Virus record (IMG/VR): IMGVR_UViG_3300042923_000513
Span: 1 to 30,306 of that record
Reading direction: 5' to 3' (one strand)
Origin: a virus
DNA: 30,306 nt
Shown here: positions 5,686-21,205 of the stretch, piece by piece
Layout of the letters: every line of letters begins with the position of its first letter
Position numbering within the stretch: the stretch's first letter is position 1
The notes under the pieces: generated by a model
What the model was told of the DNA's origin: nothing
The model's input: only the letters and a program-made list of their open reading frames with translations
Database searches by the model: none
Position numbers and translations under genes: made by a program

Positions 5686-6786
5686 ATGGCAGGTAACCCA
5701 GGAATAGACAACATACCTCCAATGTCAGGCCGAATGTTGAATAGCAGTGGTGACATAGTAAACATTGCTGATCTACTGGCCTTTATCGTGGGCGGTGCCG
5801 GATATGTCAAGCCGACTAACTTCTTGTACGTTGGCAAAAACGGCAATGACACAACCGGTGATGGCAGCGCAAATCTACCCTTCATTACTGTGCAAAAAGC
5901 AATTGATACCGCAGCATCTGGGACAACGGTTTATATCTGGCCAGGTACATATGCTGAGAGTTTAACGTTTAAAGCAGGGGTTTATCTAGCGTCACCGGTA
6001 CCTTATGGCGTTTACATCACCGGTAATCATACTGCTAACTTCGCAGGAACAGTAATCATTGGCGATATGGTACTTAACTCTACAAGCGGCGATACACTGA
6101 CCTTTAGCGGCACCGGAGCACAAACCCTGCAACTGTTAAGAGCAAGCATAAATGCCACTACTGGTCACGCGGTAAACTGGACGAATACCAATACTGCCAG
6201 CAAGATTATTGCCGAAGATAGTTCGTCTACCGTCACCACAAGCGGCGCAAGTGCAAGGTGTTTTTATAGCTCTTCTGTGGCAAAAGGGATAGTGCTTGCT
6301 AACCGGTATTCGTTCAAAGTGGATAATCCCAATAATGTATGTTTGGCTATAGGCGGCGCGATAAACTTCACACATACTTCTGATCAGGTAATAGGTCAGG
6401 TATCGGTTGCTGACACTGCGGTATATATTGGCGCGTTGGTAGCTTTAACAACTACCTCTATAGCAGCATTTACCACGACATCAAGCGGCGTATCTGTTTT
6501 ATCATCTGTACCTATAACTACTACTGCAAGTCCTGCTATTACGGGCACCGGCGGCTTTGCTTATGTGGCTATTGAATATCTGTCTACAGGCGTAGGCGGT
6601 GTAGCTACTTTAAATGGTGGCTTGGGAGCTCAGCCGTTGACGATGGCACCTATACGATTACGTGCCGCATCACTGTTGCCCTCTGCTGCTGTTTCTGCCG
6701 GCCTTTTAGGTGGAACATTTGAATATGACGGCACCAACCTGTATTTCACCACGGGAACAACCAGGAAAACAGTAACACTAACATAA
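5686..6786 (+). CDS. Right-handed beta-helix (pectin-lyase-like) virion protein
   Basis: A 366-residue protein. After a ~45-residue N-terminal segment it shows the entry motif of DUF1565/pectin-lyase-fold proteins: LYVGKNGNDTTGDGSANLPF (residues 47-66), then ITVQKAIDTA and VYIWPGTYAE (82-91). The rest is a run of short, Thr/Ser/Ala-rich beta rungs. The C-terminus (LGGTFEYDGTNLYFTTGTTR) resembles the closing segment of phage fibre proteins. Such folds in virions usually bind or cleave polysaccharide. Its place among head genes rather than with the tail fibres suggests a capsid-attached fibre or decoration, which is inference. AGAAAGGAG precedes ATG 5686. Confidence 0.7.
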   Translation: MAGNPGIDNIPPMSGRMLNSSGDIVNIADLLAFIVGGAGYVKPTNFLYVGKNGNDTTGDGSANLPFITVQKAIDTAASGTTVYIWPGTYAESLTFKAGVYLASPVPYGVYITGNHTANFAGTVIIGDMVLNSTSGDTLTFSGTGAQTLQLLRASINATTGHAVNWTNTNTASKIIAEDSSSTVTTSGASARCFYSSSVAKGIVLANRYSFKVDNPNNVCLAIGGAINFTHTSDQVIGQVSVADTAVYIGALVALTTTSIAAFTTTSSGVSVLSSVPITTTASPAITGTGGFAYVAIEYLSTGVGGVATLNGGLGAQPLTMAPIRLRAASLLPSAAVSAGLLGGTFEYDGTNLYFTTGTTRKTVTLT

Positions 6787-6810: not shown

Positions 6811-7380
6811 ATGCCAAATGATTTAAACGTAGCTATAAGCGGCGTTACAAATGACCCCAATAGATCCCTGCAAGTAACAACTGAGGGAACAGTCGCAACA
6901 TATGGAGTTGCCGCAGTAGGAATAACTCCGGCAGCTACACCGACGGATATAGTAATTATTAGTGGATCAGCCACAAAGACTGTCCGCGTTAAACAGGTTA
7001 TCGTATCTGGTGTTGCCACTACTGCCGGCAGCATGGATGTATCCCTGATAAAAAGAACTGCTGCGAATACCGGTGGAACATCTACCGCGCCAAGTATTGC
7101 TAAATTTGATGCTGGCGATGCTGCCGCGTCTGCAGTAGTTACACAATACAGTGCTAATGCCTCTGCTCTAGGGGCTGGTGTAGCCATTGCTACCAAGAAA
7201 CTTAATTTAGGTCTTGCCGGGGATGCTGGCGTGGTTGTATTTGATTTTGCGAATCGTAATGATAAGCCTGTTATCCTTCGCGGCGTTGCACAGGGATTGG
7301 CCATTAACTTTAATGGTGGGGCTGTGCCTGCTGGTGGTAGCATTACTTATTCGGTTGAGTTTGAAGAGGACGCAAGCTGA
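6811..7380 (+). CDS. Probable virion-associated beta-sandwich protein
   Basis: A 189-residue, Ala/Gly/Thr/Val-rich protein with a regular beta pattern and no cysteine. A segment TKTVRVKQVIVSGVATTAGS followed by SLIKRTAANTGG resembles small structural proteins found beside phage capsid genes. The C-terminus (GGSITYSVEFEEDAS) ends a likely beta-sandwich. It lies 24 bases after the beta-helix gene with its own AAGGAG, so the two may form one surface structure, for example a base and a fibre. Function unproven. Confidence 0.6.
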   Translation: MPNDLNVAISGVTNDPNRSLQVTTEGTVATYGVAAVGITPAATPTDIVIISGSATKTVRVKQVIVSGVATTAGSMDVSLIKRTAANTGGTSTAPSIAKFDAGDAAASAVVTQYSANASALGAGVAIATKKLNLGLAGDAGVVVFDFANRNDKPVILRGVAQGLAINFNGGAVPAGGSITYSVEFEEDAS

Positions 7381-7632: not shown

Positions 7633-8919
7633 GTGATAAAAATAGCAAAGGCGTACTATGGCGATAAAATATCAGAGAATATGATTGAGACACCAGAAGG
7701 ATATTTGGTCTGCCAGAATGTTCCCATTGGCCGTACTGGCTGGATGGAATATCTGGGACAGGAATTACCTGCTGACTTTAATATCCCATACGGTGCTAAA
7801 GTCAAAGTATATCGAAGCCCTGAAGAACTATTCTCTCCTGAGACAATCGCAAGTTTTGAGGGCAAGGCCGTTACCAATACCCACCCAACAAGCAATTTAA
7901 CACTGGATACAACTGCTATCACCGAGCGTGGACATGCGCAAAATGTTCGCCGCGATGGTGATTTTTTAATTGCTGATTTGTACGTAAAAGACCCGGGCCT
8001 GATTGATGAAATTATGAACAAACGCAAGCGGGAAACATCTAGCGGTTATGATTGCTCATGGGTACAAATTGGCGATGGAAAGTATGAACAAAGGGAAATC
8101 ATTGGCAACCATATTGCTATTGTCCCTAGCGGCAGGGCTGGACCGAAAGTGTCAATCAAAGATAGTAAACCAGACAATAAACAAAGTGGAGGTAAAAACA
8201 TGAAAATTACTCAAAAGTTTTTGGCTGCAATTGGGCTTAAGCATTTCGTCCAAGATGCAGAACCCGAGGATATTGCCAAGGCCATGGATGCCATGAGTGA
8301 ATGCGAAGAGCCGAAAAAAGAAGTAAAACCCGATGAAGCAAAGGCCGAAGCCAAAGATGAAGACCCTGCCATCAATGCCGATCTTAAAGAAATGAAAGAT
8401 CAGATTGCCAAGCTTACCGGGATCATTGAGGCCCTTGTCCAGTCGGATAAGGATGTTCATAAAGAACTTGGTGCCCAAGAGTCTATGGATGCCCTTGAAG
8501 CTGATTTGGATAAAGAAGTAAAAGACGAGAAACCGGAAGATAAGGAAACCTTGGAAGATGAAGCCAAAGAATCTGCCGCCGAGCAGAAGAAAGAAAAAGA
8601 GGAAGACACCGAAAAGCACAAGTTTGCTGCCGACGCCGCTATCAAGCAGTTCGTCAAGGATATGAAGCCGGTAATCATGGCTATTCCTGATGAGAAAACC
8701 AGGAATGAAGTTGCCAAAAAGTTTGTTGCATCCGTACAGGATAGCCGCACTGTAGCCGCTCAAAACGGTTATGCCGACATTCTGGCAGCTGCGGCAAAGA
8801 ATAAGAAAGCTGCAATGGATAAGGCCAACAACAAGCAAATGTCTACGTCTGAAGCGGCTGGTAAAGCTTGCGATGCATGGAAAGCAGCCGGAGAAAAACT
8901 AAAAGGGGGTAACAAATAA
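7633..8919 (+). CDS. Prohead protease-scaffold fusion (DUF2213)
   Basis: A 428-residue protein. Residues 1-180 match the DUF2213 pattern: AYYGDKISENMIETPEGYLV, GRTGWMEYLGQEL, NTHPTSNL (H84), SSGYDCSW (S136/S137) and NHIAIVPSGRAGP (H160). Two His and a Ser fit a herpes-type capsid protease; this catalytic assignment is inferred. Residues ~190-428 are charged, Lys/Glu/Ala-rich coiled coil typical of an internal scaffold that is removed before DNA filling. Major capsid and cement genes follow directly. The start is odd: GTG 7633 lies inside the ribosome site AAAGGAGGTGAT (7626-7637), while the codon at ideal distance is ATA 7642, so translation may begin there. Confidence 0.85.
   Translation: MIKIAKAYYGDKISENMIETPEGYLVCQNVPIGRTGWMEYLGQELPADFNIPYGAKVKVYRSPEELFSPETIASFEGKAVTNTHPTSNLTLDTTAITERGHAQNVRRDGDFLIADLYVKDPGLIDEIMNKRKRETSSGYDCSWVQIGDGKYEQREIIGNHIAIVPSGRAGPKVSIKDSKPDNKQSGGKNMKITQKFLAAIGLKHFVQDAEPEDIAKAMDAMSECEEPKKEVKPDEAKAEAKDEDPAINADLKEMKDQIAKLTGIIEALVQSDKDVHKELGAQESMDALEADLDKEVKDEKPEDKETLEDEAKESAAEQKKEKEEDTEKHKFAADAAIKQFVKDMKPVIMAIPDEKTRNEVAKKFVASVQDSRTVAAQNGYADILAAAAKNKKAAMDKANNKQMSTSEAAGKACDAWKAAGEKLKGGNK
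8200..8919 (+). CDS. Nested scaffold protein from an internal in-frame start
   Basis: Inside the protease gene an ATG at 8200 (residue 190) is preceded by TGGAGG at 8187-8192 with a 7-base gap, an excellent ribosome site in the middle of a coding region. The resulting 239-residue product begins MKITQKFLAAIGLKHFVQDA, which reads as a natural N-terminus, and consists of the charged helical scaffold alone. Many phages make the scaffold separately in this way (lambda C/Nu3 is the classic case), giving excess scaffold over protease. The product is predicted from sequence, not shown. Confidence 0.65.
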   Translation: MKITQKFLAAIGLKHFVQDAEPEDIAKAMDAMSECEEPKKEVKPDEAKAEAKDEDPAINADLKEMKDQIAKLTGIIEALVQSDKDVHKELGAQESMDALEADLDKEVKDEKPEDKETLEDEAKESAAEQKKEKEEDTEKHKFAADAAIKQFVKDMKPVIMAIPDEKTRNEVAKKFVASVQDSRTVAAQNGYADILAAAAKNKKAAMDKANNKQMSTSEAAGKACDAWKAAGEKLKGGNK

Positions 8920-14377: not shown

Positions 14378-14815
14378 ATGGGACAAACAACATACAGCTT
14401 TCTTGACCTTGCCGGGGCTATTGCGCATCCAAATCGAGGCGCTTACACATTCACCGGCGAAGGTGTTGGCGAAGTAACCGTTACAATGTCTACTGACCAC
14501 ACAGCGCACGATGTCGCTTCAGATGGTTCAATTATGGTTAGTAAAATATCGGGTAATAATGGCAGTGTTACGATATCTTGTCAGCAAACTAGCCCGGTCC
14601 ATAAGTGGCTGCTTGCTTGGCACAATTATTTACTGAATGCCCCTACTGACCAGTGGGCTCAAACTACGGCCTTGTTACGAAATACGACCGATGGATCTAG
14701 CCATGTAGTGACCGGTGTGAGTCCTCAAAAGATGCCCGATAAACAGTACCAGGCTCAAGGCCAACGGGTAAGTTGGACACTGATGGCTGCAAATATCGAA
14801 AACTTAACTGTATAA
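14378..14815 (+). CDS. Tail tube protein, DUF3277 family
   Basis: A 145-residue protein directly downstream of the sheath, the standard position of the tube. The sequence MGQTTYSFLDLAGAIAHPNR, then GEVTVTMSTDHTAHDVASDG, GNNGSVTISCQQTSPVHKWL and a closing QRVSWTLMAANIENLTV match DUF3277, a beta-barrel tube family of Bacillota and proteobacterial myophages. Hexamers stack into the inner tube. Ribosome site GGGAGG before ATG 14378. Confidence 0.85.
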   Translation: MGQTTYSFLDLAGAIAHPNRGAYTFTGEGVGEVTVTMSTDHTAHDVASDGSIMVSKISGNNGSVTISCQQTSPVHKWLLAWHNYLLNAPTDQWAQTTALLRNTTDGSSHVVTGVSPQKMPDKQYQAQGQRVSWTLMAANIENLTV

Positions 14816-14825
14816 GGAGAATGTC

Positions 14826-15260
14826 ATGAAACGAGAATCAATAAAGGACATTGAATTGGCCGGCAGACGGTGGCGAATCAAAAAGTTCGACGCACTCACC
14901 GGCTCTTATATTTCATACAAACTCTTATCTCAGATGCTGCCGGGTGGAGTGGATAAGCAACTGGGCAACATGCCTGAAGGTAGGCAGGTAATGTGTAAGG
15001 AAGATTTTATTTCTCTGCAAAAAGATTGCCTGTCTGTCGTGTATGAGCTTAAAGAAGCTGGCGCAAATCAATTTCCTATGCAAATTATGATGCCGAATGG
15101 ATCTTGGGGCGTGGAAGGTTTAGACGATGATACCGCTACGGTATTGGCGCTGACTATCCATGCTCTAATTTTTAATGTGTCGGGTTTTTTCGACGGAAAC
15201 ACATTGAAGGAGTTGACCGGCAGCTTAACGGGCCTCAACTTTGTCGGTGTGAAAATCTAG
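14826..15260 (+). CDS. Tail assembly chaperone, short form (gpG-like)
   Basis: A 144-residue protein between the tube and tape measure genes, the usual slot of the tail assembly chaperone. It opens MKRESIKDIELAGRRWRIKK, continues with a helical domain, and reaches ATVLALTIHALIFNVSGFFD before its TAG at 15258-15260. Chaperones of this type coat the tape measure protein and recruit tube subunits. Near its end lies a TTTTTTC heptamer in the correct phase for a -1 frameshift, giving the long form described separately. AAGGAGA lies before ATG 14826. Confidence 0.8.
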   Translation: MKRESIKDIELAGRRWRIKKFDALTGSYISYKLLSQMLPGGVDKQLGNMPEGRQVMCKEDFISLQKDCLSVVYELKEAGANQFPMQIMMPNGSWGVEGLDDDTATVLALTIHALIFNVSGFFDGNTLKELTGSLTGLNFVGVKI

Positions 15261-15433
15261 ATGAATGGGCCTATGCGCCGGTTATTGCCGGATGCTGGCA
15301 ACAACACCAAGTATTTGATGGCACCTACTGCCTGGACGATCTTCTTGACTGGCATGAGTTTACCACTGTAAAGAACGAGAATAAGCGCCGATTTGAAGCA
15401 TGGGCAGAGAATAACCGGAAAGGAGGGATGTAA
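14826..15433 (+). CDS. Tail assembly chaperone, -1 frameshift long form (gpGT-like)
   Basis: A slip at T-TTT-TTC (15185-15191) would join the first 122 residues to 80 residues read in the -1 frame from 15191, ending at TAA 15431-15433 and giving a ~202-residue product. The -1 frame is open from 15176 (after TAA 15173-15175) to 15430. It contains no ATG, GTG or TTG before its penultimate codon position, so it cannot be a separate gene. Its protein looks genuine: DEWAYAPVIAGCWQQHQVFD, then GTYCLDDLLDWHEFTTV. The stop overlaps the tape measure ATG (TAATG). This matches the lambda G/GT principle. Confidence 0.82.
15185..15191 (+). promoter_or_regulatory. Programmed -1 ribosomal frameshift site (TTTTTTC)
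   Basis: The heptamer fits X-XXY-YYZ in the reading phase of the chaperone gene (G GGT TTT TTC becomes TTT TTT C). A possible stimulating hairpin follows: GTTGACCG at 15212-15219 can pair with CGG and TCAAC around 15229-15240. The hairpin is inferred by eye. Confidence 0.78.
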
Positions 15434-17415
15434 TGGGACTAGATATCATAAAAAGCTACTTAGTCGCACTTGGTTTTCAAGTCAATAACTCTGAATTTGA
15501 CAAAGCCAATAAAGCTGTTGACGATCTAGGGAAAACCGTTCAATCTGTAACTTCCGGAATGACCAGAAGCTTTGTCGGCGCTGCCGGTGCTATCGTTGGC
15601 GCTATTGCAGCAGTAACTACGGCAACCGCTGGCATGATTGATGCCGTGTCCAAGGCCGATCTGCAATATGAAAAGTTAGCTTTGCACATGTACACTACCA
15701 AACAAGTAGCCAAAGAGTTAAAAACTGTGTTGGATACCATGGGCGAAAGCATGGATGATGTTGCATGGATACCGGAGCTAAGACAGAAATACTTTGAACT
15801 GTTAGGACAGGCGCGGCAGATGGAAACACCTGCCGATGCCGCCGGGCAATTAAAGGATATCCGCAGTATCACTTTTGAATTTCAGCGCATGAAACTCGAA
15901 GCGACCTATGCTATGCAATGGATTGCTTACTATCTGACTAAATACCTATCAGGACCGTTAGGAAGCCTCAAAGGCGGCTTAAAAGGCTTTAACGATTGGA
16001 TTGTAAAAGAAATGCCGACATGGACTAATAAAGTCGCTCAATGGCTTGTTATGATTATTAATTTGGGCAAGGCGGGGATTAGGTTTGTCGGTGACTTCTA
16101 TTCCATGCTAAAAAGTGTGTTTGACATGCTGCCACAAGGAGTAAAGCTATTTGTATCGGCTATGGCTATCCTGGGGGCCGCAGTAATGACCGGTCCTTTC
16201 GGTTGGTTTGTATTGACGCTTGGAACAATTCTTATCCTATTAGAAGACTTCTATGGATACATGGAAGGACGGCGTTCGTCAAAGACTCTTGCGCCTATGT
16301 GGGATAAGTTAATCAGCCTTGGCGGCAGTATGAAGGAGTGGAAAGACAAGGTACTGCCGGACCTACTCAGAAGGATTAATGACCTTGTGTTGAGCCTGGG
16401 AGAGTTAAATGCCAACGGGTTAAAGACTACCTATACCTGGCTTAGCTCTATCATCGGGATATTGACTGACTCCATGAAGAAAAACGGGGTTTGGTATTCT
16501 TTCCAAGTGATGTTAAGCGACATTAGCGACTCTCTCAACAGTGTGTTTAAGGGGTTAATCAACATTGGCAAGCAGATGGATATTATCCCGAAGAATACAT
16601 CGTTTAAGACCTTTTGGCAATGGTTCGGTGATGAACTAGCCAGAGAGTTGAAAGTTCTATCTGCTTTTGGCCGGGCCGTGGCCGGGATTGTTGATATGAT
16701 TGGATTGGTTATGCAGGGAAACTATGCGGCAGCGGCGGCAAGAGGTGCCAGTATATTCCCTAATCTCAAAAGGGATTTAGCAAATTCGAGTGCAGGCGGT
16801 AATGGACATGGAACATCCTGGAGTTGGGGAGGGTCAGACGGCAGTGATATAAGCAAATTCATGGAAGCTATCGGACAGAAAGAAAGTGGCGGCAACTATG
16901 ATTCCCCAGAACACATGGATGCCGGGCATTGGAATAAAGGCGGTAAATATCAAATACTTGCTGAAAACTGGCCGCAATGGACGGTCGAGGCAGGGCTTCC
17001 TTCCAATGCTCCGTATACTGCTGAAAACCAGGAAATAGTCGCTAAAAACAAAATGCAGCAACTGTATCAACAGTACGGTGACTGGAGTTTAGTTGCTGCG
17101 GCTTGGAATGGTGGCGGCAGGGGAGTAGATAGTTATTCAAAGTATGGTCAAGATTCCTATATGAATGGCTATGTTTCATCTGTAATGGGTAATTTCCGGT
17201 CAAATGCTGCTTACGCGCAGCAACAAATGTCCGCTCCTTATGCGACAGGGGGCTCTAATTCCGTAAATGTAAATATAAGTGGCGGCGTTAATGTGCAGGT
17301 TATGCCTGGTGATGATCCACAAAAGTATTATGCGAAGACTATGCAAGCTTTGGAAGATAAATTTGGAATAAAAACTTCAATGGAAATAGCTGATATGAGA
17401 GGTGTTACGGGATGA
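15433..17415 (+). CDS. Tape measure protein with C-terminal lytic transglycosylase domain
   Basis: A 660-residue protein that sets tail length and is ejected first. The N-terminus (GLDIIKSYLVALGFQVNNSE) and long helical body are typical. Hydrophobic stretches lie at ~47-69 (FVGAAGAIVGAIAAVTTATA) and ~237-272 (LFVSAMAILGAAVMTGPFGW onwards), likely membrane-active. Residues ~470-585 form a soluble lytic transglycosylase/lysozyme-like domain: EAIGQKESGGNY with candidate catalytic E484, GKYQILAENWPQW, and VAAAWNGGGRG. This would open peptidoglycan for DNA entry. At 660 residues it is short, implying a short tail. The ATG overlaps the frameshift product's stop. Confidence 0.9.
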   Translation: MGLDIIKSYLVALGFQVNNSEFDKANKAVDDLGKTVQSVTSGMTRSFVGAAGAIVGAIAAVTTATAGMIDAVSKADLQYEKLALHMYTTKQVAKELKTVLDTMGESMDDVAWIPELRQKYFELLGQARQMETPADAAGQLKDIRSITFEFQRMKLEATYAMQWIAYYLTKYLSGPLGSLKGGLKGFNDWIVKEMPTWTNKVAQWLVMIINLGKAGIRFVGDFYSMLKSVFDMLPQGVKLFVSAMAILGAAVMTGPFGWFVLTLGTILILLEDFYGYMEGRRSSKTLAPMWDKLISLGGSMKEWKDKVLPDLLRRINDLVLSLGELNANGLKTTYTWLSSIIGILTDSMKKNGVWYSFQVMLSDISDSLNSVFKGLINIGKQMDIIPKNTSFKTFWQWFGDELARELKVLSAFGRAVAGIVDMIGLVMQGNYAAAAARGASIFPNLKRDLANSSAGGNGHGTSWSWGGSDGSDISKFMEAIGQKESGGNYDSPEHMDAGHWNKGGKYQILAENWPQWTVEAGLPSNAPYTAENQEIVAKNKMQQLYQQYGDWSLVAAAWNGGGRGVDSYSKYGQDSYMNGYVSSVMGNFRSNAAYAQQQMSAPYATGGSNSVNVNISGGVNVQVMPGDDPQKYYAKTMQALEDKFGIKTSMEIADMRGVTG

Positions 17416-18131
17416 ATATTTCAAACATATGGGCAGGGTACAATCTAATCCGAGTCCTAACAATGCAAAAGCAATATCCTAATATAATGCCTCTAAATGC
17501 TGTTCCTTGGCGACCTCCCGAGTGGAAAGGGTTGCCGTCAAGCGAAGAAGAATTCACCGGACAAAACGCCAATGGTACAAGTACTGGTAAACCCGTTGGA
17601 CAAATACTCTATCTTAAGACGAATATTGGCGGGTACTTCTTTGATGCCTTTTTGCGAGTGGAACACAGTTCAAGTTTAAAAATAACCAGCCATCCTGTAC
17701 AATCAGGAGCAAATATTTCCGATCACGCGTACATGGAACCGGTAACGCTAGTCATGGAAGTTGGTATGTCCGATGCCATGGATAGTTTAATACCAAATCA
17801 ATTTAAGGGGTTCGACACTAAATCAGTGACCGCGTACAATGTTTTAACCGACTTGCAAGAAAGCCGCGTACCCTTTGAGGTTCATACGCGGCTTAAACAT
17901 TACACGAATATGCTGATTGAAAACATCTCGACTGCTGATGATTTTAAAACTATGAACGGGTTACGGTGTACGGTGACAATGAAGCAAATTCTATTGGTGG
18001 ATGTGGCAAAAACTACTGTTAGTGCAAGAAACCAAGCAACAGGTTCTACTCAACAGGGAATTGTGCAGTCAACTCCGGTGCCGCCAACGATCGCTGCGCT
18101 AATCGAAGAAAGATATGGATCAATCGGTTAA
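17412..18131 (+). CDS. Dit-like baseplate protein
   Basis: A 239-residue protein overlapping the tape measure stop by four bases (ATGA). The segment FDAFLRVEHSSSLKITSHPV, then GANISDHAYMEPVTLVMEVG and YNVLTDLQESRVPFEVHTRL, leading to a beta domain with CTVTMKQILLVDV, is the pattern of the Dit-like N-terminal family in contractile baseplates, which joins the tube end to the hub. In related phages the plug and hub genes come next. Here a 3.1-kb island separates them. Its TAA overlaps by four bases the end of a gene on the other strand. Confidence 0.8.
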   Translation: MNISNIWAGYNLIRVLTMQKQYPNIMPLNAVPWRPPEWKGLPSSEEEFTGQNANGTSTGKPVGQILYLKTNIGGYFFDAFLRVEHSSSLKITSHPVQSGANISDHAYMEPVTLVMEVGMSDAMDSLIPNQFKGFDTKSVTAYNVLTDLQESRVPFEVHTRLKHYTNMLIENISTADDFKTMNGLRCTVTMKQILLVDVAKTTVSARNQATGSTQQGIVQSTPVPPTIAALIEERYGSIG

Positions 18132-18769
18132 TTATTAAATTTTTTATTCTTATAAGCCAGATCCTTTGAAAAATATAGATCTAAATCCATTTCACCGATC
18201 ATTCCGCTTGCCCCAAAGCTATAAGTAAATACTAGCCATGTCGGTTTTTTACCCGGAACATTTACCTGATACATTTTACGACCTTCACTAAAACCTTTGC
18301 TTTTGTCATCAATAATTTTAATCTCGTCCGCATGGAATATTGTTGAAAAATAACTATCAGGTGTAAATATCTTCATAGTTGGAAATGTGATAACACTTTT
18401 AACTAAATTAATATTTACGCAGGATATTCCGCGATCATAATAACGGCCAAGTAGAGAAATACCCCATTCCTGATTAGTTGTATATTTTTTTAATATTTTT
18501 AGTGGCTCATTATTTATAGTGACAACGGTTTTCCCTACGCGATATCCCACGTTGTTGTAAAATTGAACACCATCTGTCTCCCAAGCAATCGGGCTCTGCT
18601 CCGGAGATTCAGACAAAACATCCCAAGGAATAACATTTTTATCTGAAGTTTCGTTAATAGAGAGTTCCTTGATGAGATCGTATAGTTCTATAGTCTTGGG
18701 TTGTTCGGCAAAGCTTGTCCCGGTTACTAAAACCAGTAGCAAGCACACTAAAATAATGATCCTTCTCAC
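18128..18769 (-). CDS. Exported protein of unknown function (moron)
   Basis: A 213-residue protein on the opposite strand to the tail operon. The start is GTG 18769, seven bases after AAGGAG. It gives a clean signal peptide (VRRIIILVCLLLVLVTGTSFA, likely cleaved at SFA/EQ, so mature from about residue 22). In-frame codons further upstream lack a ribosome site. The mature part (~190 residues) is mixed beta with Trp/Tyr-rich strands (WETDGVQFYNNVGYRVGKTV, and KKPTWLVFTYSFGASGMIGE). No family recognised. A secreted product within a prophage late region suggests lysogenic conversion, i.e. expression in the dormant prophage. Confidence 0.72.
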   Translation of the reverse strand: MRRIIILVCLLLVLVTGTSFAEQPKTIELYDLIKELSINETSDKNVIPWDVLSESPEQSPIAWETDGVQFYNNVGYRVGKTVVTINNEPLKILKKYTTNQEWGISLLGRYYDRGISCVNINLVKSVITFPTMKIFTPDSYFSTIFHADEIKIIDDKSKGFSEGRKMYQVNVPGKKPTWLVFTYSFGASGMIGEMDLDLYFSKDLAYKNKKFNN

Positions 18770-18849
18770 GTTATCACTCCTTAATATCTTTTTAATATGA
18801 TTTTCAATAGTAAGACAATTTATTCCTGTAGAAAGGGAGGTGTACCAAT

Positions 18850-19224
18850 ATGAACTCTTTTTATCTAAGTAAAAAAAATCTGGAAGAAATGATTGATTCA
18901 AAGCAGTATGTAATTACCGGTGTACTCAAAACTGGTGAAATCACGGTTGCCGTTATAAGCCATGCTGAAAGAGATATACTCGATAAATTGCTGTTGTTAT
19001 ATTCAGAACCTGCCACGCCGTCAGAATGTGAAGATAAAGCGATTAGTTCGTTGTACAAATTATCGGAACTTCACGGCAATAACTCAAGAGAACTCGTAAA
19101 GGCTTGGGAGCAATTAGAAATTAATAAAAGAATTAATGATAAGTCTAAAATAGATTTTACATGGAAACCAGTTGAAGTATGTTCTAAAAACGGACTACAG
19201 ATTAAGAAATTTAGAGACTATTGA
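18850..19224 (+). CDS. Hypothetical protein in the accessory island
   Basis: A 124-residue protein divergent from the exported-protein gene across an 80-base AT-rich gap. AGGGAGG lies about nine bases before ATG 18850. It is helical and charged, with a central VISHAERDILDKLLLLYSEP segment; no signal peptide, membrane helix or catalytic motif is seen. The last 30 bases overlap tail-to-tail with the DUF2513 gene on the other strand. Function unknown. Confidence 0.6.
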   Translation: MNSFYLSKKNLEEMIDSKQYVITGVLKTGEITVAVISHAERDILDKLLLLYSEPATPSECEDKAISSLYKLSELHGNNSRELVKAWEQLEINKRINDKSKIDFTWKPVEVCSKNGLQIKKFRDY

Positions 19225-19542
19225 TGACGCGACATTTGCTATAACGTCAAGAGCGGCAGACCCTAAGGGTTTAATGGTCTCTTTAGTTCGATTCCATACA
19301 TCCTGGTTGCGAATGTTGTTTAAAAAAGCGTGTCCCTTCGGCGTTAAATCGAATATGTAGCCATCGTTAAAGATAATCAGGCTGGCATCAGCCAAGTAAG
19401 CAATATGATATTTTATTATAGAGTATTCATGATTAGGGTAACGCTTATCATGAACATAATCAACGGGATAATTACGGTTTCTGTCACAAATAGTTTCCAA
19501 TGTTAACAGTAAATCTCGGATTAAATCATAATCCAATTTCAC
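19195..19542 (-). CDS. DUF2513 protein (winged-helix-like)
   Basis: A 115-residue protein beginning MKLDYDLIRDLLLTLETICD with GTG start at 19542 and AAGGAGGGG upstream on the minus strand. The signature KYHIAYLADASLIIFNDGYI, then LTPKGHAFLNNIRNQDVWNR, matches DUF2513, a small family common on prophages and plasmids and predicted to fold as a winged helix. It may be a DNA-binding regulator, but no function is established that I know of. Full length for the family. It converges with the neighbouring plus-strand gene. Confidence 0.8.
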   Translation of the reverse strand: MKLDYDLIRDLLLTLETICDRNRNYPVDYVHDKRYPNHEYSIIKYHIAYLADASLIIFNDGYIFDLTPKGHAFLNNIRNQDVWNRTKETIKPLGSAALDVIANVASSIVSKFLNL

Positions 19543-19583
19543 TTACAACCCCTCCTTTTTTCTTGATATTCTTCGACAAAAGG

Positions 19584-19614
19584 AAACATTTACCTGTACA
19601 GCGATAAAATGTTT
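19584..19614. promoter_or_regulatory. Inverted repeat, candidate operator
   Basis: AAACATTT at 19584-19591 is mirrored exactly by AAATGTTT at 19607-19614, with the smaller palindrome CTGTACAG at 19594-19601 between them. The right arm touches the -35 of the following plus-strand promoter, so a repressor bound here could silence it. Inferred from symmetry. Confidence 0.4.
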
Positions 19615-19640
19615 TACAAACCGCATAAATAGGTTATAAT
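19613..19640 (+). promoter_or_regulatory. Sigma-70/A-type promoter
   Basis: TTTACA at 19613-19618, 16-base spacer, TATAAT at 19635-19640. Expected start near 19647. No plus-strand open frame follows for over 200 bases, so its likely product is an RNA antisense to the small peptide gene. Confidence 0.65.
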
Positions 19641-19648
19641 AAGCATAG

Positions 19649-19684
19649 AACTAAAGAACGCCCCTACTGCTAATAGGGGCGTTC
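19649..19684 (-). terminator. Terminator of the small-peptide gene
   Basis: Perfect 11-bp stem with 7-base loop (19656-19684), followed on the minus strand by TTTAGTT. It lies 16 bases past the peptide stop codon. Confidence 0.6.
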
Positions 19685-19699
19685 GATGGATACCGGAGG

Positions 19700-19789
19700 C
19701 TAACGGTACACTTCGCGGATAATCTGATAAATTATCCACAAAGCGCCGCTTGAAACGGTTAGTTGGAACCATTTCGTTCTCAAGCGCAT
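19700..19789 (-). CDS. 29-residue hydrophobic basic peptide, candidate type I toxin
   Basis: ATG 19789 follows GGGAGGT (19797-19803 on the minus strand) with seven bases between, and the frame ends at TAG 19700-19702. The peptide starts MRLRTKWFQL, has a hydrophobic stretch at residues ~8-24 centred on ALWIIYQII, and ends REVYR, so basic ends flank a likely membrane segment. It has its own extended -10 promoter, a leader hairpin and a terminator, and an oppositely directed promoter fires across it. This architecture is that of type I toxins such as TxpA or BsrG. No sequence family is recognised; toxicity is inference. Confidence 0.55.
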   Translation of the reverse strand: MRLRTKWFQLTVSSGALWIIYQIIREVYR

Positions 19790-19814
19790 AACATTCACCT
19801 CCCGTATTCAGTTT

Positions 19815-19837
19815 GGAGCAGGCTGCAATCCTGCTCC
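19815..19837 (-). other. Leader hairpin at the 5' end of the small-peptide mRNA
   Basis: Perfect 8-bp stem GGAGCAGG/CCTGCTCC with a 7-base loop, starting at or within a base or two of the predicted transcription start. A stem at the very 5' end commonly protects toxin mRNAs from decay. As a palindrome it would also form in the antisense RNA. Confidence 0.5.
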
Positions 19838-19843
19838 TTCCAT

Positions 19844-19852
19844 ATTATAGCA
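19844..19852 (-). promoter_or_regulatory. Extended -10 promoter of the small-peptide gene
   Basis: TGCTATAAT on the minus strand is a perfect extended -10 element; no -35 is evident. Expected start near 19837, just at the leader hairpin. Confidence 0.6.
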
Positions 19853-19855
19853 TAG

Positions 19856-19879
19856 CCGTCCTTTATAGGGCGGTTTTTT
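19856..19879 (+). terminator. Rho-independent terminator
   Basis: CCGTCC/GGGCGG 6-bp stem (one G-U) with loop TTTATA, followed by six T. It would end the plus-strand antisense transcript. Confidence 0.7.
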
Positions 19880-19880
19880 C

Positions 19881-20010
19881 ATGCCTCGAAAATCTCATAG
19901 CGACTTCCAATTATTTTTGGATAAAAGTAAAAATAGCCCTTGAAGGTAAGACCCTTAAGGACTATGTTATCGAGCTTATAAAGGCAGACCTGGAAAAGTC
20001 CCAAAAGTAA
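19881..20010 (+). pseudogene. Frameshifted ribbon-helix-helix-like fragment
   Basis: The frame from ATG 19881 (MPRKSHSDFQLFLDKSK) stops at TGA 19941-19943, while the overlapping +1 frame carries IALEGKTLKDYVIELIKADL and ends at TAA 20008-20010. That second part is the helix-turn-helix half of an Arc/MetJ-type antitoxin or repressor. Removing one A from the A-rich run near 19926-19936 joins the two into a 42-residue protein. It may be a decayed antitoxin, a sequencing slip or a shifted gene. The first helix looks shorter than usual, so more may have been lost. A TTG-started reading from 19813 gives an unlikely N-terminus. Confidence 0.4.
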
Positions 20011-20080
20011 AAGGAAGCCCGCATCAAGTTTGGCCACCTGACGGACTTCCTAACCGCAAACCTCAGAAGAGGCTTACATG
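20005..20080 (-). ncRNA. Possible short minus-strand RNA with terminator
   Basis: Another TGCTATAAT extended -10 reads leftward at 20087-20095. About 65 bases downstream is a hairpin GGAAG-CCG/CGG-CTTCC (20013-20050, one mismatch, large loop) followed on the minus strand by TTTTACTTTT. No ribosome site or convincing ORF lies between, so a small RNA of 70-80 bases is possible. Weak evidence. Confidence 0.3.
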
Positions 20081-20120
20081 CCATGATTATAGCATGTTTT
20101 AGCCTCTATCTGCAAGGTTT
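20058..20120. repeat. Three-part inverted repeat around a -10 box
   Basis: Nested arms AAACCT/AGGTTT (20058, 20115), AGAGGCT/AGCCTCT (20068, 20101) and CATGC/GCATG (20077, 20092) surround the TGCTATAAT box. It could be an operator, or on a plus-strand transcript a long hairpin before the two small genes that follow. Confidence 0.5.
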
Positions 20121-20141
20121 AGCACGGATAGGAGTATTTTT

Positions 20142-20252
20142 ATGTCCAAAAAAGTTCAAGAAGTAGACATGGATCTCGTTAAAATAGTTGCCCGTATGTG
20201 GTTACAAGTGGTTATAGAAGAAATGGAAGAGAATGGGGAGGTTAAATCATGA
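20142..20252 (+). CDS. 36-residue helical protein
   Basis: ATG 20142 has ATAGGAG seven bases upstream. The product MSKKVQEVDMDLVKIVARMW, then LQVVIEEMEENGEVKS, reads as a single amphipathic helix. Its TGA overlaps the next ATG (ATGA), so the pair is coupled. Function unknown; proteins like this can be small regulators of a neighbouring repressor or antirepressor. Confidence 0.5.
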   Translation: MSKKVQEVDMDLVKIVARMWLQVVIEEMEENGEVKS

Positions 20253-20380
20253 TTGATGTCCCTAAAAATGTTTTAGATATATCCCCGTCAGACTTAACTG
20301 ATGAGCAAATGGATAATATCGTAATTATTGTCCATAGTGTTTTAGCTGAATACATTAATGAAATAGGATTAAATATTTAG
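20249..20380 (+). CDS. 43-residue protein of unknown function
   Basis: It starts inside the previous stop (ATGA) with GGGGAGG eight bases upstream and ends one base before an ATG in the antirepressor leader. The sequence MIDVPKNVLDISPSDLTDEQ, then MDNIVIIVHSVLAEYINEIG, is acidic and helical with no known motif. The tight chain of overlaps (20142, 20249, 20399) suggests one small operon expressed with the antirepressor. Confidence 0.5.
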   Translation: MIDVPKNVLDISPSDLTDEQMDNIVIIVHSVLAEYINEIGLNI

Positions 20381-20398
20381 ATGAGTGGAGGGAAGCAA

Positions 20399-21205
20399 AT
20401 GAGTGATTTAACTAAAATATTTAACTACAATGGGAAACAGGTCAGAACGGTGCAGTTGCCCAATAGTAAAATCGGTTTTGTTGCAAAGGACGTTTGCGAG
20501 TCTCTTGATATTGTATGGAAGGGCAGTCAGGTTTTAGCTAACATTAAGGACGCTCACAAGGGGGTAACGCGATTAGTTACCCCCGGTGGAGATCAAGAAA
20601 TTTGGTATGTAGATGAGCCAGGTCTATACAAACTTGTCTCTCGCAGTAATAAAGAAGAGGCCGAAAAATTTCAAGACTGGATTTACGAGGATGTACTGCC
20701 GGCCATTCGTAAACATGGCATGTACGCCACAGACGATTTACTGAATGATCCTGATCTGGCAATTAAGGCATTCACTGCCCTTAAGGAAGAACGGGCCCGG
20801 AATCAACAATTGGCACTTGAAAATGCCCAGAAAACTCAAATAATCCATGAGCTTCAACCAAAGGCTACATACTACGATTTTATTTTGCAAACTAAAGCTG
20901 CTATATCAGTAAATCAAATTGCAAAAGACTATGGAATGTCTGCAAGGCAATTAAATAACCTGTTACATGATTTTAAAGTACAATATAAAGAAGGGGGAAT
21001 ATGGTTATTGTATCGAGACCATGCGCCAATGGGGTATACTTCATCCAAAACCCATAATTACACTAACAGCAGGAACGAGCAATGCAGTAAGCTTCATACC
21101 TATTGGACACAAAAAGGCCGACTGTTTATCTATGACCTGCTAAAACAGCACAGTATTCTTCCGATGATTGAGCGCGAAGGGTTAAGATTGGTTTCAAATA
21201 AATAG
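20399..21205 (+). CDS. Phage antirepressor, BRO-N plus KilAC domains
   Basis: 268 residues from ATG 20399, which has GGAGG seven bases upstream; the in-frame ATG 20381 lacks a site. Residues ~8-105 are a BRO-N domain (FVAKDVCESLDI, EIWYVDEPGLYKLVSRSNKE, FQDWIYEDVLPAIRKHGMY). Residues ~140-255 are a KilAC domain (SVNQIAKDYGMSARQLNNLL, THNYTNSRNEQ, FIYDLLKQHSIL). Such proteins bind DNA and counter phage repressors in induction. Finding one amid baseplate genes is unusual; it may regulate a co-resident element or this phage's own repressor. A terminator follows. Confidence 0.88.
   Translation: MSDLTKIFNYNGKQVRTVQLPNSKIGFVAKDVCESLDIVWKGSQVLANIKDAHKGVTRLVTPGGDQEIWYVDEPGLYKLVSRSNKEEAEKFQDWIYEDVLPAIRKHGMYATDDLLNDPDLAIKAFTALKEERARNQQLALENAQKTQIIHELQPKATYYDFILQTKAAISVNQIAKDYGMSARQLNNLLHDFKVQYKEGGIWLLYRDHAPMGYTSSKTHNYTNSRNEQCSKLHTYWTQKGRLFIYDLLKQHSILPMIEREGLRLVSNK

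Follow-up and report, generated by a model that had tools for sequence, protein, structure and literature searches.

The window analyzed here, a stretch of viral DNA of 30,306 nt (IMG/VR record IMGVR_UViG_3300042923_000513), contains a gap of 172 nt (15261–15432) between the gene of a tail assembly chaperone (TAC) and the tape measure gene. The question is whether this gap is empty or is the distal part of an overlapping frame that is reached by a programmed -1 frameshift, as the original prediction proposed.

The chaperone gene and its -1 reading frame

The chaperone gene (14826–15260, plus strand) encodes a short form (TAC-N) of 144 aa and 16.0 kDa and is closed by a 0-frame TAG codon at 15258–15260 (plus strand). 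Its product matched Phage_TAC_15 (PF21822; E 3.7e-7, 31.1 bits against a Pfam cut-off of 22 bits, residues 13–123) and phrog_1688, 'tail assembly chaperone' (E 4.6e-9). As in lambda G/GT-type loci, the gene is located between the genes of the tail tube protein (14378–14815, plus strand; KPP10_Orf10/DUF3277 type, PF11681, E 5.8e-47) and the tape measure protein (15433–17415, plus strand). The latter was assigned by its position, its length, a weak SLT domain match and matches to tape-measure phrogs.

A check of the sequence agreed with the original prediction on the geometry of the region. The stop-free stretch of the -1 frame extends over 15176–15430 and overlaps the 0 frame of the chaperone gene; it contains no ATG, GTG or TTG before the ATG at 15428, which is its final sense codon. 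The heptamer TTTTTTC (15185–15191, plus strand) reads GGT TTT TTC in the chaperone frame, i.e., it stands as T_TTT_TTC in the slippery X_XXY_YYZ phase. The extension (15191–15433, plus strand) consists of 80 codons and a TAA codon (15431–15433), which overlaps the ATG of the tape measure gene (15433) in TAATG. A frameshift at the heptamer would join chaperone residues 1–122 to these 80 residues in a predicted fusion (TAC-NC) of 202 aa and 23.2 kDa.

The -1 frame matched DUF6889 (PF21829; E 7.2e-9, 35.7 bits against a cut-off of 23.9 bits) over all 40 model positions, as well as phrog_4364 (E 1.2e-10), and the DUF6889 match is readable solely in this frame. Since the -1 frame matches a known domain, the 172-base gap is coding, and the earlier impression that the extension looks like real protein was borne out. 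An NCBIfam search gave no matches. Modeling of the extension from its single sequence resulted in a pLDDT of 38.8, and modeling from 39 sequences in a pLDDT of 82.6, with 49 residues at a pLDDT of at least 90. In this confident model the conserved residues of the extension are predicted to form a helical domain. No significant match to the model was found among PDB and BFVD structures, and no solved relative of the extension was found with sequence profiles.

Substitutions in related loci were counted past the 0-frame stop, where constraint on the -1 frame had been expected to continue beyond 15260. In 78 locus pairs, the changes at the three -1-frame codon positions numbered 837/614/1707, and the -1 frame had a median dN/dS of 0.14, defined for 55 of the pairs, versus medians of 1.3 and 1.7 for the other two frames; the pairs are not independent, and the direction is clear. 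A comparison of the window with 13 relatives gave 220/187/429. Judging by these patterns, the overlapping -1 ORF, which has no start of its own, is under protein-level purifying selection.

Conservation of the slip site in relatives

The heptamer was also evaluated against chance. When the chaperone gene was resampled with synonymous codons, 20% of the trials produced an in-phase T6 at some position of the gene, and codon resampling of the same gene yielded some in-phase XXXYYYZ within its last 60 codons in 48% of the trials. Three more in-phase T6 runs are located within other ORFs of the window (1303, 7962 and 22906). With a chance level of about 20% and these other runs, the heptamer alone is weak evidence, and it is conservation in relatives together with the match of the -1 frame to a known protein domain that lifts the case above chance. 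The proposal of a programmed -1 frameshift in the TAC gene is thus upheld through relatives, selection and the domain match, and not through the heptamer by itself.

Relatives were collected in two ways. A search that used the tube protein, independently of the chaperone, gave 21 viral contigs, and all 20 of those that reached far enough carried an in-phase T6 along with the -1 extension. Scanning with a profile of this extension, with patterns taken from its distal part, gave at least 80 viral loci and 45 genome loci; the latter were mostly from Bacillota (Sporomusa, Anaerovibrio, Clostridium, Paenibacillus, Brevibacillus and Alicyclobacillus). After removal of loci with more than 85% nucleotide identity, 103 nonredundant loci remained among the matches listed, including the window and omitting one truncated contig and the loci whose extension scored below 80 bits. 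The closest organism-named relative among the matches listed was Sporomusa sp. KB1, whose chaperone and extension are 51% and 63% identical to those of the window, respectively. No relatives were retrieved when protein patterns of only the chaperone were scanned, and a search of plasmids gave no match.

The conservation of the heptamer and of the -1 frame that would be expected from a functional site was found in these loci. The heptamer was TTTTTTC in 81 of the 103 loci and TTTTTTT in 21, so that T_TTT_TT stands in phase in 102 loci, with one exception. In the same 102 loci, the X position is T after codons of eight amino acids (Gly, Ser, Asp, Pro, Ala, Val, Thr and Asn), for which the background frequency of a third-base T is 19–62%. 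This synonymous T is accounted for by slippage and not by the protein sequence of the chaperone. No stop interrupts the -1 frame between the slip site and the end of the extension in any relative whose two-frame locus is readable.

The only locus of the 103 without T6 belongs to Paenibacillus algorifonticola (2400–2520), where the sequence reads CTT TTT CAA. It was considered as a possible counter-example; CTT TTT CAA still permits a single-codon slip, and it may represent a natural variant of the slip site, similar to the GTT TTT C type known from the literature and to GTT TTT CAA of KPP10. In another locus, from the unverified metagenomic record MT840050.1 (455–1050), the chaperone is apparently frame-disrupted and the distal two-frame overlap is kept.

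Two other explanations of the -1 frame can be weighed against these data. It could be an independent downstream gene that has a start codon of its own and is translated by itself or through re-initiation, and the stretch is indeed annotated as a separate hypothetical CDS in GenBank records of Klebsiella GZ7, Hafnia yong1, BgManors32 and KPP10. However, conservation of the extension begins at the slip site itself (FFRRK...), 5' of most annotated starts, and a start codon with a Shine–Dalgarno-like motif is absent within 35 codons of the slip in 101 of the 103 loci. Together with the lack of ATG, GTG and TTG before 15428 in the window, this makes a separate gene very improbable. The heptamer and the open frame could also have arisen by chance, with the 172 nt left untranslated. 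The resampling rate of about 20% for an in-phase T6 agrees with such a coincidence, which is contradicted by the known domain, the purifying selection and the conservation in more than 100 loci, and its probability is negligible.

Downstream RNA structure and the probable mode of slippage

A stem-loop was predicted at 15200–15251 (plus strand) on the basis of fold z, enrichment in the family and covariation; it begins 8 nt past the heptamer and has a fold z of -2.56. Stimulatory RNA structures downstream of the slip site are common, not universal, in lambda G/GT-type frameshifts. Neither this stem-loop nor the known type of event was mentioned in the original prediction. In the 103 loci, the mean fold z of the 70 nt past the heptamer was -1.17, compared with values between -0.4 and 0 for seven control windows, and stems of at least 8 bp that start 4–13 nt past the heptamer were present in 51 of the 103 loci versus 77 of 715 control windows. 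The stem length was 7.76 with the true halves and 6.15 (sd 0.13) when the 3' halves were swapped between loci. In fixed-length alignments, by most measures few or none of the shuffles matched the two-sided changes in the outer helix, and the covariation score also exceeded that of slid versions; the loci are related, which means that the shuffle tests overstate the significance of the stem. The first of the alignments, with all loci of equal spacing, is the fairer one, because the members of the second were chosen partly by their arms. At least two layouts were distinguished, namely a long stem with arms about 35 nt apart, to which the window belongs, and a short hairpin near the heptamer, and a strong stem is present in only about half of the loci. 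The predicted stem is a probable frameshift stimulator.

Nearly the same product would appear if RNA polymerase inserted a U on the T6/T7 run and the ribosomes did not slip. The slip run is homopolymeric and conserved in length, as this explanation would have it, and poly-T/A runs cause transcriptional slippage in other genes (review PMC5009743). However, six or seven Ts make a short run for efficient slippage of the polymerase, and a stem 8 nt 3' of the heptamer is the classic layout of a ribosomal frameshift. Efficient transcriptional slippage usually takes about nine Ts. Distant relatives, i.e., phages of Proteobacteria and Elizabethkingia, are also informative: they share the two-ORF layout, and their in-phase heptamers are GGGAAATTTTTTG, AAATTTT (AbTJ), GGGAAAT (IFTN9) or CCCTTTT (Magia and BgManors32), the last three being tandem-slip heptamers that lack a T6/T7 run. 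Since the heptamer varies and yet stays tandem-slippery, ribosomal re-pairing fits these data and polymerase slippage does not; we regard the latter as unlikely.

The locus anatomy, the coding -1 frame, the conserved slip site and the family-wide excess of stems are observed; that slippage takes place, that it is made by the ribosome rather than RNA polymerase, its rate and the binding roles of the products are what we infer. All these characteristics allow us to assume with high confidence that this is a two-isoform TAC gene, which would produce a 144-aa short form and, by a stem-aided -1 ribosomal frameshift, a 202-aa fusion, presumably with roles like those in lambda. The majority of ribosomes would translate 14826–15260 into the short chaperone. 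A minority would move back one base at U_UUU_UUC, where two tRNA-Phe could re-pair on UUU UUU, aided by the RNA stem-loop 8 nt 3' of the heptamer, and would then translate 80 codons in the -1 frame, as far as 15433, which would place the DUF6889 domain at the end of the fusion. If the roles are as in lambda gpG/gpGT, the N-terminal part common to both forms may coat the tape measure protein and the extension may recruit tail tube subunits, so that a few fusion molecules per complex would initiate assembly of the tube.

A wider reading, to which we would give slightly less than an even chance, is that contractile-tail phages and prophages centred on Bacillota share one cassette of T_TTT_TT and a stem, which would preserve the chaperone ratio through deep divergence. 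It is a joint claim, in which the stem would start roughly 6–8 nt past the heptamer, its two or more layouts being interchangeable, and DUF6889 would be the frameshift-made tube-binding half throughout the lineage.

Comparison with known systems and the surrounding genes

The order of tube, chaperone and tape measure genes, the overlapping -1 ORF, the tandem heptamer and the short and fused forms (the latter predicted here) are shared with lambda gpG/gpGT, whose slip site is G_GGA_AAG. In contrast, the window combines TAC_15 with DUF6889, slips at a putative U_UUU_UUC and has a contractile tail. The lambda type of -1 frameshift in tail assembly genes was described by Xu, Hendrix and Duda in 2004, as cited in PMC5009743 and PMC3711429, and gpGT connects the tape measure and the tube protein (PMC5009743). 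Frameshifting in tail chaperones is textbook knowledge from lambda and many other phages (PMC5009743, PMC3711429; tool PRFect, PMC10885494). For phages that have a TAC_15 chaperone or a similar layout, it has already been annotated in Magia and Mulock and argued for in Vandenendeviridae (PMC12846349).

In Pseudomonas phage Adele and other Vandenendeviridae, a conserved -1 frameshift at GTTTTT in the TAC locus was argued from 56 alleles (PMC12846349). Phage KPP10 was provisionally placed with this group by its gene order and TAC. Like the window, it combines, within 7660–8288, a TAC_15 chaperone (E 9e-25) with a -1 ORF that precedes the tape measure gene; the kind of locus is the same. However, this ORF (ORF14) has no DUF6889 match and the slip site is GTT TTT C (GTT TTT CAA), so that, with KPP10 as the representative of the group, the Vandenendeviridae-type TAC_15 chaperone was found without the shared extension. 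It seems from this comparison that the frameshift-encoded domain was replaced or has diverged within the TAC_15 chaperone family.

Burkholderia phage Magia and Klebsiella phage Mulock have the same sheath, tube and chaperone layout, and their depositors annotated a joined 'tape measure chaperone frameshift product'; unlike the window, they are distant in sequence (tube about 28% identical), with the heptamer CCCTTTT in Magia. The nearest named phage records are those of the Agathobaculum phages AB434P2/P3 (TAC 34% and extension 44% identical, in-phase TTTTTTC), in which the extension is unannotated.

The locus leaves the understanding of tail assembly and recoding unchanged; what it offers is mainly a correction of annotation. 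Gene-finding programs miss the frameshifted extension, and in several GenBank records the stretch is empty or a separate hypothetical gene. About 80 residues per genome in more than 100 loci look non-coding or stand as such a hypothetical gene. None of the papers listed in the literature search was found to name DUF6889; by analogy with lambda, a likely role of the domain is to recruit the tube as the C-terminal half of a tail chaperone. As a conserved set, the loci also form a natural series for how the slip site and the stem set the frameshift ratio.

The assignment to a contractile tail is based on the neighbouring genes. These encode a DUF3383 protein, which is annotated as the sheath in relatives, a Dit-like protein and a baseplate hub, and by sequence similarity they form, with the KPP10-type tube gene, a contractile tail module. 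Within this module, about 3 kb of cargo-like DNA (18128–21205), partly on the minus strand, separates the Dit-like gene from that of the baseplate hub and carries a 257-aa ORF that has no Pfam match, a DUF2513 protein (19195–19542) and a Bro-N/KilAC antirepressor (20381–21205). Terminase-like, portal and major capsid genes are located elsewhere in the window. Two ORFs (5686–6783 and 6811–7380) lie between the portal gene and a DUF2213 (protease/scaffold-like) gene, and one of them matches DUF1565, which is an unusual location for such a protein.
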